From: Hydrogenothermaceae bacterium
GTDB lineage: Bacteria > Aquificota > Aquificia > Aquificales > Hydrogenothermaceae
Assembly (NCBI GenBank): GCA_012961365.1
Contig: DTZN01000242.1
Coordinates: 1 to 15,558, forward strand
Reading direction: 5' to 3'
Length of the DNA stretch: 15,558 nucleotides
The translations under genes and the position numbers were made by a program. Positions 3,870 through 8,800 of the stretch are shown piece by piece. How positions within the stretch are numbered: position 1 is the first letter of the stretch; each line of letters begins with the position of its first letter. Below the pieces are notes generated by a model, which had not been told where the DNA came from, searched no databases, and saw nothing but the letters and a program-made list of their open reading frames with translations.

Positions 3870-4731
3870 AGCAGTAGAAATTTTTGAGTTTTTAGTTTCT
3901 ATTTTAATAACTTTTGGTTTTATATACCTATTTTATAAAGTTATAGGATTTGAAAGATTTATTAAATTTTTTTCTTCTATTAACTTAGTTAACGTTTTAT
4001 TTGCTTTTTTTCTATATTTTATCAGTTATATTCTAAGAACTATCCGATGGCGAATTACTTTACCAGTAAAAAACTTCTTTAAACTATTTAAATTGACTGT
4101 TTATAACACAGTTTTTAATATATTTTTGCCGTTTAGAACTGGAGAATTTTCATTTTTTTATATGCTAAAAAAAGAAGGAATAGAAATTTCAAAATCTGCT
4201 GTAAGTTTTTTTACTGTTAGAATATTTGATGCTTACGCTTTGTTTATTTTATTTATTTTTTCTTATTTTCTTATTAAAAATTTTATTTTAGCAATTTTAT
4301 TTTTACTTTTTTCTCCTATTGGGATAATTTTTATAGCTTTTGCTTCAAGTTTTATAAAATATGAAAAGTTTAAAAGTTTCAAAGAAGATATTTTACATAA
4401 AAAAAATATTTTTAGTTTGTATGTTTTATCTATATTAACGCTTTTTTTCAAATTTACTGCATTTTATTTAGTTCTTCCACAAGGGTTAAATTTAAGCTAT
4501 TCTTTAGCTTTATTTGCTTCTTCTGCTGGAGATTTAACAACAATACTACCAATACATGGTATAGCAGGAATAGGAACTTATGAAGGAGGATTTGCAGGTA
4601 TCCTCATTCTTCTTGGTATAGATAAAGACACTGCGATCTTATCTTCTGTTTTTGTTCATATATTTATTTTATCTGCATCAGCAGTTTTAGCATTAATAAC
4701 AAAGCTACTGTCTTACATTTTAAAAGCTTGA
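3850..4731 (+). CDS. Integral membrane protein of the YbhN/AglD/MprF N-terminal (lysylphosphatidylglycerol synthase TM-region) family
   Basis: A 293-residue, very hydrophobic protein with about seven membrane segments (near 10-30, 46-64, 127-145, 147-170, 188-208, 245-258 and 262-285). Family marks are RTIRWRI (63-69), the NIFLPFRTGEF block (90-100) and the late GIAGIGTYEGG loop (237-247). This fold is the flippase-like half of MprF and also occurs alone in YbhN and AglD, often beside polyprenyl glycosyltransferases. A role in moving or presenting a lipid-linked substrate made by the preceding enzyme is inference. The start is uncertain. TTG at 3850 overlaps the upstream gene by 20 bases, but its GGAAG is too close; GTG at 3862 is the alternative, with the same site rather far. 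The tail overlaps the convergent gene by 19 bases. Confidence 0.82.
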   Translation: MSKKVNKAVEIFEFLVSILITFGFIYLFYKVIGFERFIKFFSSINLVNVLFAFFLYFISYILRTIRWRITLPVKNFFKLFKLTVYNTVFNIFLPFRTGEFSFFYMLKKEGIEISKSAVSFFTVRIFDAYALFILFIFSYFLIKNFILAILFLLFSPIGIIFIAFASSFIKYEKFKSFKEDILHKKNIFSLYVLSILTLFFKFTAFYLVLPQGLNLSYSLALFASSAGDLTTILPIHGIAGIGTYEGGFAGILILLGIDKDTAILSSVFVHIFILSASAVLALITKLLSYILKA

Positions 4732-5672
4732 CTTATCTTTTCCTTAATTATTATTGTTATCTGCTCTGCTATGTAATCTTTTAGTTCAGTATTTATTTCT
4801 TTAAATATTTCCTTTTCCAATTTTTTGAATATGTTAGCTTTAACTTCTTGTTTTATTTCTTTTTTTATTGTTTCTAGCTCAAAGTTTATCCTATTTACAA
4901 AATCAAGTTTTACATTTTCAAAAATTTCTTTTATTTCTGACTTTTCCTTTAGCTCTGAAACAAGCTTATCAACAGCAAGCTTTACTATAGTATTTTCTAT
5001 TTCTTTTTTTGAAAAATTTAACGTAATAATTTCACCACTGGGTTGTTGATTTGTAGAAGGTCGATTTATAATATGCTCTTCTTTCATTTCAAAAGTATAT
5101 TCTTCTTCCAAAGAAAAAGTTGATTTTGAAGTTTCATGCTTACTATAGTTTATATCTTCTATTGGTATATCAGTGAATTCTTCAAAAGTTTCTTCAGTAG
5201 GTAAGTCTTGGGAATATATTTCTTCTACATCTTTGGGAGATTGAAATTTTGTCGTTGGTTCTTGAGTTTCAAAATTTTTTTGAGGTGTTAGTTTTTGAAC
5301 TAATTTGGTTTCTTCTTCCTTTATTTTCTTACTTTCTTCTAAAATGTCAGAAATAACTTTGTAAAGCTCTGTATTTTTTTCGTATATATCTATATCTTGA
5401 GAAAGAATTTCACTATCTTCTATTGGTTGTTCCTTTGAATATAAAACCTTAAATTCTATATCTTTTACTTTATCTCTAGATAGTAAAAATTTTAAATCAT
5501 CAAAAGCAAAATCTCCTGCAGAAGCATCGTAAACTATGAATATAGGCTTAAAATCATCAAGTTCTTTAAGCATAGATATACTATCTATATAAACTCTAAC
5601 ATTTTCTTCTCCTATTTGTTTTTTAAATTCTTCTGCTATGTTTGGGTCAAAAGAAATAATAGCAGTTTTCAT
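4713..5672 (-). CDS. Receiver-domain-like protein with acidic linker and helical C-terminal domain, coupled to reverse gyrase
   Basis: No named family recognised for the whole 319-residue protein. Residues 1-115 fit a CheY-like receiver fold: strand AIISFD with D9, FIVYD with D49 at the phospho-acceptor position, VLYS with S79 where Thr/Ser is usual, and IYEK with K99 as the conserved lysine. Only one of the usual acidic pair before D9 is present (FD instead of DD). Residues about 117-220 are a low-complexity acidic linker rich in E, T, S and P. Residues about 222-319 are predicted amphipathic or coiled-coil helices rich in K, E and I. There is no DNA-binding output domain. The start sits behind AAGGGAGG (5685-5678), and its ATG overlaps, as ATGA, the stop of the restored reverse gyrase tail. 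A scaffold or localisation role is speculation. Confidence 0.75.
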   Translation of the reverse strand: MKTAIISFDPNIAEEFKKQIGEENVRVYIDSISMLKELDDFKPIFIVYDASAGDFAFDDLKFLLSRDKVKDIEFKVLYSKEQPIEDSEILSQDIDIYEKNTELYKVISDILEESKKIKEEETKLVQKLTPQKNFETQEPTTKFQSPKDVEEIYSQDLPTEETFEEFTDIPIEDINYSKHETSKSTFSLEEEYTFEMKEEHIINRPSTNQQPSGEIITLNFSKKEIENTIVKLAVDKLVSELKEKSEIKEIFENVKLDFVNRINFELETIKKEIKQEVKANIFKKLEKEIFKEINTELKDYIAEQITIIIKEKISQAFKM

Positions 5673-5818
5673 AATTGCCTCCCTTGGTAATATTTTTCTA
5701 TTACATCTTCAAAAAGCTTTTCTAATGCTTTAGTATAATCTTCGTTGCTTTTTTCTATTTTGTCCATAATTTCTTCAAGCTCTTTTGTGTAGTTTTCATT
5801 AACAAACCTGTAAAACTC
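5669..5818 (-). other. C-terminal tail of reverse gyrase in the -1 frame
   Basis: From the GAG at 5818 the -1 frame is open for 49 codons to a TGA at 5671-5669. It encodes EFYRFVNENYTKELEEIMDK followed by an acidic helical stretch ending in YYQGRQL. This matches how type IA topoisomerases end (after the GRPSTYA...LIPT.LG block, F-x-x-x-x-Y-T-x-x-[LM]-E-x-x-[LM]-D-x-I). The zero-frame alternative gives only a lysine-rich 20-residue tail with no family look. The TGA overlaps the next start codon as ATGA, the spacing expected for an intact operon. I therefore take it as true reverse gyrase sequence, reached by frameshifting or after correcting one base. Confidence 0.85.
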
Positions 5819-8800
5819 TTTTTTTCCTTTATTATATTTAAAACTTCAATTCCCAGCTTCGTTGGAATTAAATGTCTGTTTTTTTCCACTATGTATTTTC
5901 TTTCTAATAGTTTTTCTATAGTTATAGCGTAAGTAGAAGGTCTTCCTATACCTTTTTCTTTCATATCTTGGATTACTTCTTCATATGTGTAGTATGGAAC
6001 TTTTGGTTTTAAAAAGTATGATTTATTTTGATTAACATTTATCTTTCCTTCTGGAATTTGATAAGTTTTTACTGGCAGTATTTTATTAAATCCTTCTTCT
6101 ATAATTTTAGTTATAAAACTTTCTTGCAGTATTTTATCAAATGCTTTTATTTCATATGTTGTTTTTTCTATTACTGTTTCTTTCATTTGTGAAGCTATAA
6201 ATTGTTTAAAAATTAGGTCATATAATTTTAAGTGTTTATCTGTTATTTCTGTTAAATTCATTGTAAATACTAATGATTTTAAATCATTTACATCATTTGG
6301 TTTCGTAGGTCTGATACATTCATGGGCTCCTTCAAAGCCTGAAAAAGTTTTTGGTTTAAAAAATCCTTCTCCAAAATTATCTGTTATATATTCTTTTGCT
6401 ACTGCAATTCCTGCTGGAGATACTCTTATACTATCAGTCCTATGGTAAGTGATTAGTCCTGCTTCAAATAAATCTTGAGCTAAGCTCATTGTTTCCTGTG
6501 GTGAAAACTTTAATTTGTGTGCTGCTGCTTTTAACATTTGGTCTGTGGAAAATGGTTTCTCAAAGAGAGTTTCTTGCACTAATTGTAGCTTCTTAATATA
6601 TATATACTCAAGATTATCAAAAAATTTTTTGGCCTCTTTTTTATCTTCAAATACAAACTCCACGGGGACATTGTTTATAAAAACTCTAACAACTGCCAAC
6701 TTTTTCTTTGCTTCTTCTGCTCTTTTAACTATCCACTCTAAAACTGGTGTTTGAACTCTACCTGCAGATAACCAATTTTTACCTAGTTTTTTTTGTATAA
6801 ATTTAGAAATTGTAAACCCTATCCATCTATCTGCAATTCTTCTAACTAACTGTGCTTTTACTAAATTTTTGTCTATATCTCTTAGCTCCTTTAAAGCATT
6901 TAAAAATGCCTTTCTTGTGATTTCGTGAAATTCTGCTCTTTTTATATTTAAGTTATAAGGTTTTGAGTTTAATGCTAAATCAAAAGCAATTTTTTCTCCT
7001 TCTGTATCTGGGTCAGTTGCAACAACTATCTCTTCTACTTCTATGTCTAATTCTCTTATACTTTCTATTACTTCTTTTTTAGATTGGTTGTTATCTTCAA
7101 TTGTTTCAAATATTGGAACAAAATACTTATCTTCTTTTAAAACTCCATAATATCCATATTCTTTAGTTAAATCAAATATATGCCCTTTACTTGCCACAAT
7201 TGTTAAAAATCTTTCCCCAACTACTATTTCGTAAGCATCTACTTTTTTTAGTTTTCTTCTAATTGGTTTTCCAAAAAAGTTTGATATAGTCCTTGCTTTA
7301 TTTGGTGATTCAACAATTACAAGAGTAGTTTTAAAACTTTGCTTTTCTTCTTCTAATTTTTCTCCTTTTAGAATTTTTTTTACTTTTTCTCTATCTTTGT
7401 CTATTTCTTTTAAAATTTCTTCTAAATTAATATTTGAAACAGGAACAAACTCAATATCTTCATTAAACCATTTAACCTTTTTCTGAAGTGAGTAAAATGC
7501 TTTTTCATCATCAACTAAAACATAAGAAAGCCCCTTTGTTAAACCTCCTGCATATAACCTTGAGGTTCTTCCTGATGCTTGTATATATCCTGTAATGTCT
7601 GCTGTTGTTAATGTAAAGTTTCCATTTTCTTCTTTTAGAGTAATTTCTGGTGAATTTTTAATAGCTTCGTATATTTGTTTATTATTTAAAAGCTGTAAAA
7701 CAAAGCTTTTTATTTCTAATAGTTTATTCTGTTTATCCTCTGGTAGTCTTTCAAGTTCCATAAATCCATAAATTTTTAGAAAGTTTATATATCTATAAAG
7801 TTTTAGCTGGGTATTTTGGTCTATTAGTTTTTTTCTAAATAAAAATGGAACAACTATAAGCAAAAAGTAGTATAAATGAGAAAATTTCTCTTCTATTGAT
7901 ATATTAAACTTTAGCTTTGGAACTCCAACAAAAAGTGCATATCTAATTGTATCTGGTAAGTCTACTCCTCTAGCTAGTGGATTTCTATAACTTGCAAATC
8001 CTACCGCAACTGAATATTTACCTAATTTGTATTCTTCTACTTTGTCTAAAAATTCTTCATAATGAAGAGCATTTATGCCATTTTGTTTTAGAAATTCTAT
8101 ATATTCTTCCAACCTTTCTTTTGTTTCGGAAGAAGGTAAAAATACAAGCCCTCCATTTCCAAGTTTCTTTATTTCTTCAATAGATTTTTCCCATAAATTT
8201 TTAGGTTTATCATAAGTATCAACTATATTTCTAAATGTTAAGGAAGGTCTTCCAACTTCAAATCCAAGTAATTCTCTAAATAGTAGAACCCTTTTTGAAC
8301 GAGGATTTGATGTAGCAGATGATACGATTAATGTCCCTTTTCTTTTTTGGGATATTTTTAAAATTTCTTCTTGAAATTTATTAAACTTTTCAAATTGTTT
8401 CTCTGATATATTATTAGACCTGAAAATTTTTGCCTTAAATTTTATAAATTCTAAAGTTTTTTCTATATCTTCCTGAGAAAAACCTAAAAGCATTAAAACC
8501 TTATCAATATTTTTTGCACTTTTTAAAATACTATCCACATCATCTATAAAAATGAGACTAAAAATTCCTTTAGGGATGATGTCTATATTTTTGTATAAAA
8601 ACATTACCGTTGTTAATAAAATATCAAAATTTCCATTTGAAATTTTATTTTTTAATTCTTCTTGTTTCTTCTTTGATTTTGCAAATTTTGAGCTGTATGG
8701 AAGAATATTTTTCCCTTTTACTCCATAACTAATAAGCCTATCATAAGCTTGATTAACTAAAATTTGCGTTGGAAATATTAGATAGACTTTTTGCTTTTTC

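Follow-up and report, generated by a model that had tools for sequence, protein, structure and literature searches.

The window, a stretch of 15,558 nucleotides from the genome of a Hydrogenothermaceae bacterium (G000; 315 contigs), carries a reverse gyrase gene that changes reading frame near its 3′ end, at a run of seven adenines (A7; Table 1). The encoded protein combines the zinc finger, helicase, Toprim and topoisomerase IA domains of a reverse gyrase, and the coding sequence around the break reads AAG GAA AAA AAG AGT TTT ACA. In the zero frame, the product of 1135 residues ends at a TAG codon at 5757-5755. By contrast, the −1 frame, which can be entered at a dnaX-type slippery heptamer, ends at a TGA codon at 5671-5669 and would give a full-length product of 1164 residues. 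Re-reading of the sequence upheld the coordinates and lengths (1135, 1164 and 49 residues) that an earlier note on this DNA had given for the frame change, and the overlap that it had described between the −1 frame stop and the next gene is present. Runs of seven or more A occur seven times in the gene. The genome of the window contains no full second copy of reverse gyrase; two further matches are partial and weak.

Table 1. Coordinates of the reverse gyrase gene, its frame break and the neighbouring gene in the window
Feature	Position	Strand	Basis
Reverse gyrase gene, zero frame, 1135 aa	5755..9162	-	ORF and domain matches
A7 run at the frame break	5819..5825	-	sequence
Heptamer A_AAA_AAG	5818-5824 (read 5824-5818)	-	sequence
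Zero-frame tail 3′ of the tract, 20 residues (SFTGLLMKTTQKSLKKLWTK) and TAG	5755..5817	-	
−1 frame, 49 residues with the conserved topoisomerase IA C-terminus, and TGA	5669..5818	-	
Next gene, 319 aa; its ATG overlaps the −1 frame stop (ATGA)	4713..5672	-	

The earlier note had proposed that the −1 frame encodes the genuine topoisomerase IA C-terminus, and domain and motif comparisons agree. A complete topoisomerase IA C-terminus is absent from the zero frame, in which the Pfam Topoisom_bac match covers the 411-position profile only as far as position 381; the match in an intact protein from the same species (P0005) reaches position 409. Moreover, among the best 120 of 7824 protein-search matches, the motif [FYH]T..[LIV]E..MD is found near the C-terminus of all 116 of the other proteins listed (P0005-P0120) and in none of the four frame-broken ones. 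Given the extent of the Pfam match and the distribution of this motif, the −1 frame holds the true C-terminus of reverse gyrase.

All 61 genomes searched have a match to reverse gyrase, and the C-terminal DNA was compared in 30 of them with loci that reach the gene end; G024, the match of which has one TGA inside, stands outside this comparison. The C-terminus lies in a single, uninterrupted frame in 30/30 of these relatives, and the break is therefore, as far as their sequences indicate, not conserved. The sister genome G003 (93% identity) reads GAA AAA GAA GAA at the site, and G004 (88% identity) reads GAA AAA GAG GAA. An A7 run with the frame unbroken is present in the same region of two of the 30 (G028 and G036).

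Within the species, both forms of the gene are represented. A protein search with reverse gyrase residues 900-1135 returned the same broken end in four proteins (P0001-P0004, on 1, 19, 6 and 2 contigs, respectively) and an intact end in one (P0005), a ratio of 28 contigs to 1 that was counted at the protein level and may derive from few samples. The rest of P0005 is as in the broken forms: before the tract, and apart from their starts, P0001-P0005 differ only at residues 415 (P/T) and 794 (G/R). Because P0001-P0004 differ at these two positions, the broken end is carried by three protein variants. Residue 415 (P0004 numbering) is threonine in P0001 and P0003, which together account for 7 contigs, each of which has the broken end. 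Proline occupies this position in 112/112 other aligned reverse gyrases, and P415T, on 7/28 broken contigs, may be a hint of loosened constraint.

The intact protein also bears on how the break arose. P0005 reads KEKKEFYR at the site, which is what a run of eight A (A8) would encode. Loss of one G from GAA AAA GAA GAG would give the same sequence as contraction of A8 to A7, and would fit the sister species in one step; this route was set aside, as P0005 does not read KEKEEFYR. Contraction of A8 is therefore the preferred origin, on the protein-level evidence of the intact same-species form. We consider it probable that the window records a natural, recent A8-to-A7 contraction in the reverse gyrase gene, with A7 the commonest allele sampled. 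This reading is favoured by the identical broken end on 28/29 same-species contigs, by the single frame in all 30 relatives and by an infB gene that is intact on 29/29 contigs of the species; against it stand four further one-base losses inside genes of G000 in 147 kb of aligned sequence. An A8 tract that lost one A would have given rise to an allele in which 49 conserved residues are replaced by a 20-residue out-of-frame tail. Normal translation would then yield the 1135-residue protein without the last conserved part of topoisomerase IA, and most of this product is probably impaired. Low-level slippage of RNA polymerase or ribosomes on A7 may yield a little of the 1164-residue enzyme. Of the three outcomes that the earlier note had offered, a genuine frameshift mutation is the best fit.

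Substitution patterns indicate long constraint on the gene. Upstream of the tract, comparison of the window with G003 gives a dN of 0.026 and a dS of 0.258 (dN/dS about 0.10), and the tail carries one nonsynonymous and three synonymous changes in 47 codons (dN/dS 0.06). Because dN/dS is low both before the tract and in the tail, constraint prevailed for most of the history of the gene, with purifying selection until recently. The window branch has 20 nonsynonymous and 58 synonymous codon changes, versus 11 and 49 on the G003 branch, with 62 codons unassigned to either; the nonsynonymous excess on the window branch is not significant (Fisher p 0.41), and decay is therefore not demonstrated. The break would thus be young, or selection would still be acting through rescue, in either case after a long period of constraint.

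Such rescue would consist of unprogrammed slippage, either by RNA polymerase, with an extra A in the transcript, or by ribosomes, with a −1 shift, at a frequency sufficient to provide functional reverse gyrase. The locus is a homopolymer indel in an otherwise intact, constrained gene; the tail sequence is conserved; both polymerase insertion of an A and a −1 ribosomal slip would restore the right frame; and tRNA-Lys(UUU) is the only lysine tRNA found, as in E. coli. Precedents are described for Blochmannia and Buchnera, in which poly(A) frameshifts are rescued by transcriptional slippage (PMC3017870, in the part cited), and for the A11 tract of tssM1, at which slippage occurs (PMC4256274, in the part cited). 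The endosymbiont cases resemble the window gene in having a one-base poly(A) indel in an otherwise intact gene of an AT-rich genome; they differ in having longer tracts, whereas the window has A7 in an organism that is free-living by inference, with rescue only a candidate. By E. coli figures, A7 is short for slippage: in the cited sections of PMC6260861, a reporter detected no slippage below eight A, and sequencing put insertion at a single A7 at 0.39%. A run of nine A is reported to slip efficiently (PMC5009743, in the part cited). In-frame A_AAA_AAG is not avoided in the genome, and the break may be too young for decay to show. We regard rescue to a functional level as unlikely, although it is the alternative that best survives. 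It would make this bacterium a free-living thermophile with a frequent reverse gyrase allele that is readable in full only after slippage on A7, with A7 and A8 alleles segregating and slippage perhaps greater at high temperature, a combination that we hold to be doubtful.

An error of sequencing or assembly, with eight A in the true sequence, was considered because of other one-base losses in G000. Comparison of G000 (393 kb) with G003 (805 kb), of which 147 kb aligned, revealed 23 isolated indels near open reading frames (ORFs) with lengths that are not multiples of three. By our reading, five of these break a G000 gene body, namely rgy (reverse gyrase), infB twice and two further genes, all as one-base losses at or near A/T-rich runs. 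The infB gene (encoding IF-2) is broken at about 9249 and 9490 on the minus strand of L098 (G000:C19), in a low-complexity linker. In a protein search of the same style, infB is intact at 905 aa on 29/29 same-species contigs (P0121-P0124), and the breaks in G000, which are missing from these contigs, are therefore likely to be assembly errors; G000's own broken infB is absent among the infB matches listed. At about 7200 and 10677 of L144 (G000:C272), two genes, presumably zinc-binding-protein-like and NnrS-like membrane-protein-like, go out of frame at an A7 and a T7 run; their G003 counterparts are unbroken. A protein search with the broken NnrS-like fragment gave no same-species entry among the matches listed and is uninformative. 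One of the 23 indels instead affects G003, in which dnaX loses frame near its start at an A7 (L113, G003:C34, about 10488); the G000 run is A6, and its dnaX frame is unbroken. Also consistent with an error is the single intact same-species contig, which at 10,824 bases is one base longer than the longest P0003 contig (10,823 bases); the two also differ at residue 415.

However, the break in rgy is not confined to one assembly, as it appears in three protein variants on 28 database contigs, possibly from few samples. The lengths of 8-base A/T runs are equal in G000 and G003 in 25/27 aligned cases, and so runs of eight are not undercalled in general in G000; the rgy run is itself merely seven or eight long. 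Over both strands of the whole genome, runs of exactly eight and exactly nine A number 601 and 29 in G000, 612 and 40 in G002, and 224 and 21 in G007. Because the counts in G002 and G007 fall likewise, the drop beyond eight A is not peculiar to the G000 assembly. Across ten genomes counted (G000, G003 and eight others), A runs of eight are common and runs of nine are rare in all. Taken together, the broken rgy on 28/29 contigs, the intact infB on 29/29 and the agreement of the eight-base runs argue that A7 is most likely in the real DNA. The possibility of a one-off assembly error is weakened by the same observations, and we rate an error at this site as improbable. The earlier note had called error the simplest reading; on the contig counts and run agreement we judge it less likely than a real mutation. 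Its suggestion that one A was missed does accord with the ancestry of the tract, for which the intact P0005 points to eight A, but the loss itself is less readily attributed to sequencing.

The earlier note had also raised programmed dnaX-type −1 ribosomal frameshifting, or transcriptional slippage, as a source of two reverse gyrase ends. The exact A_AAA_AAG at the break is in its favour, as is the finding by ARAGORN of tRNA-Lys(UUU) as the only lysine tRNA in G000 (26 of 27 tRNA candidates gave a gene, the exception being L216) and in G002 (5 of 35 candidates, without a locus, were left untyped). An argument against ribosomal slippage from the presence of two lysine tRNAs accordingly failed. 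A review ties the sole lysine tRNA of E. coli to slipping at A_AAA_AAG; for Thermus, which relies on slippage of the polymerase, it proposes the presence of two lysine tRNAs as the reason (PMC5009743, in the part cited). E. coli dnaX, as described there, is like the window gene in both its heptamer and its sole tRNA-Lys. The window gene is unlike it in three respects, namely downstream structure, conservation and a Shine–Dalgarno (SD)-like element at a distance. Three stretches examined for downstream RNA structure fold no better than shuffled sequences (z 0.07, 0.17 and 0.41), and none of the 30 relatives has the break. The E. coli dnaX frameshift has an SD-like stimulator; here, an AAGGA adjoins the heptamer and none lies upstream of it at a distance.

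The heptamer itself is frequent. In mechanically called ORFs, with expectations from 40 synonymous shuffles, in-frame copies of A_AAA_AAG number 79 in 272 G000 ORFs against 60.4 expected, and 181 in 589 G003 ORFs against 136.2 expected; it is common and not avoided. In the same kind of comparison, runs of nine A are strongly avoided in G000 ORFs (1 observed, about 98 expected) and are likewise far below expectation in G003 ORFs. Chance does not explain the frame break in the reverse gyrase gene, but as a signal the heptamer does lie within chance, because the gene has seven A-runs of at least seven and the 272 genes of the genome hold 79 in-phase copies of A_AAA_AAG. With an intact allele in the same species as a further objection, programmed frameshifting was rejected on conservation, RNA folding and heptamer counts, and we consider it very improbable. 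On balance, no evolved signal for frameshifting is seen. What may persist of the proposal is unprogrammed slippage, with which the single lysine tRNA is compatible. The observation in the earlier note is thus confirmed, and its interpretation partly supported. Least probable of all is phase variation, in which an A7/A8 contingency tract would switch reverse gyrase: broken and intact forms are both seen in one species (28 contigs and 1, judged from proteins) and high mutation frequencies are possible at poly(A) tracts (PMC2831843, in the part cited), but this tract is a short one at the 3′ end, belongs to a set of seven such A-runs in the gene, and is a site at which no relative among the 30 is out of frame.

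Broken reverse gyrases have been reported before. Thermus thermophilus HB27 has a decayed, truncated reverse gyrase and HB8 an intact one (PMC1274311), so that it is, like the species of the window, a thermophile with truncated and intact forms. The T. thermophilus gene differs in being megaplasmid-borne and thought to be acquired, and the passages cited from that paper do not describe a homopolymer change. In Aeropyrum camini, reverse gyrase is divided between two ORFs with a one-base frame offset, a state ascribed to potential pseudogenization or sequencing error (PMC6878951). As in the window, a single base breaks the gene, but the organism is an archaeon rather than a bacterium, and the cited text of PMC6878951 does not settle the cause. 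A literature search by title, with most subscription papers outside its scope, found no paper on a frameshifted reverse gyrase of Aquificota. To the broken genes of T. thermophilus and A. camini, the window gene adds population evidence.

As a case of programmed frameshifting the locus has little importance, because that reading is unsupported. Its interest lies in the enzyme itself. Reverse gyrase has been described as unique among proteins in being present in every hyperthermophile and in no mesophile, and strains that have lost it show temperature-sensitive growth defects (both from the part of PMC6878951 cited). If one species has both a common broken allele and a surviving intact one, it would offer a test of what reverse gyrase is needed for, and also of the shortest A run that slippage can rescue in a hot cell. 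If such rescue does take place, a hallmark enzyme of life in heat would be supplied by decoding errors.
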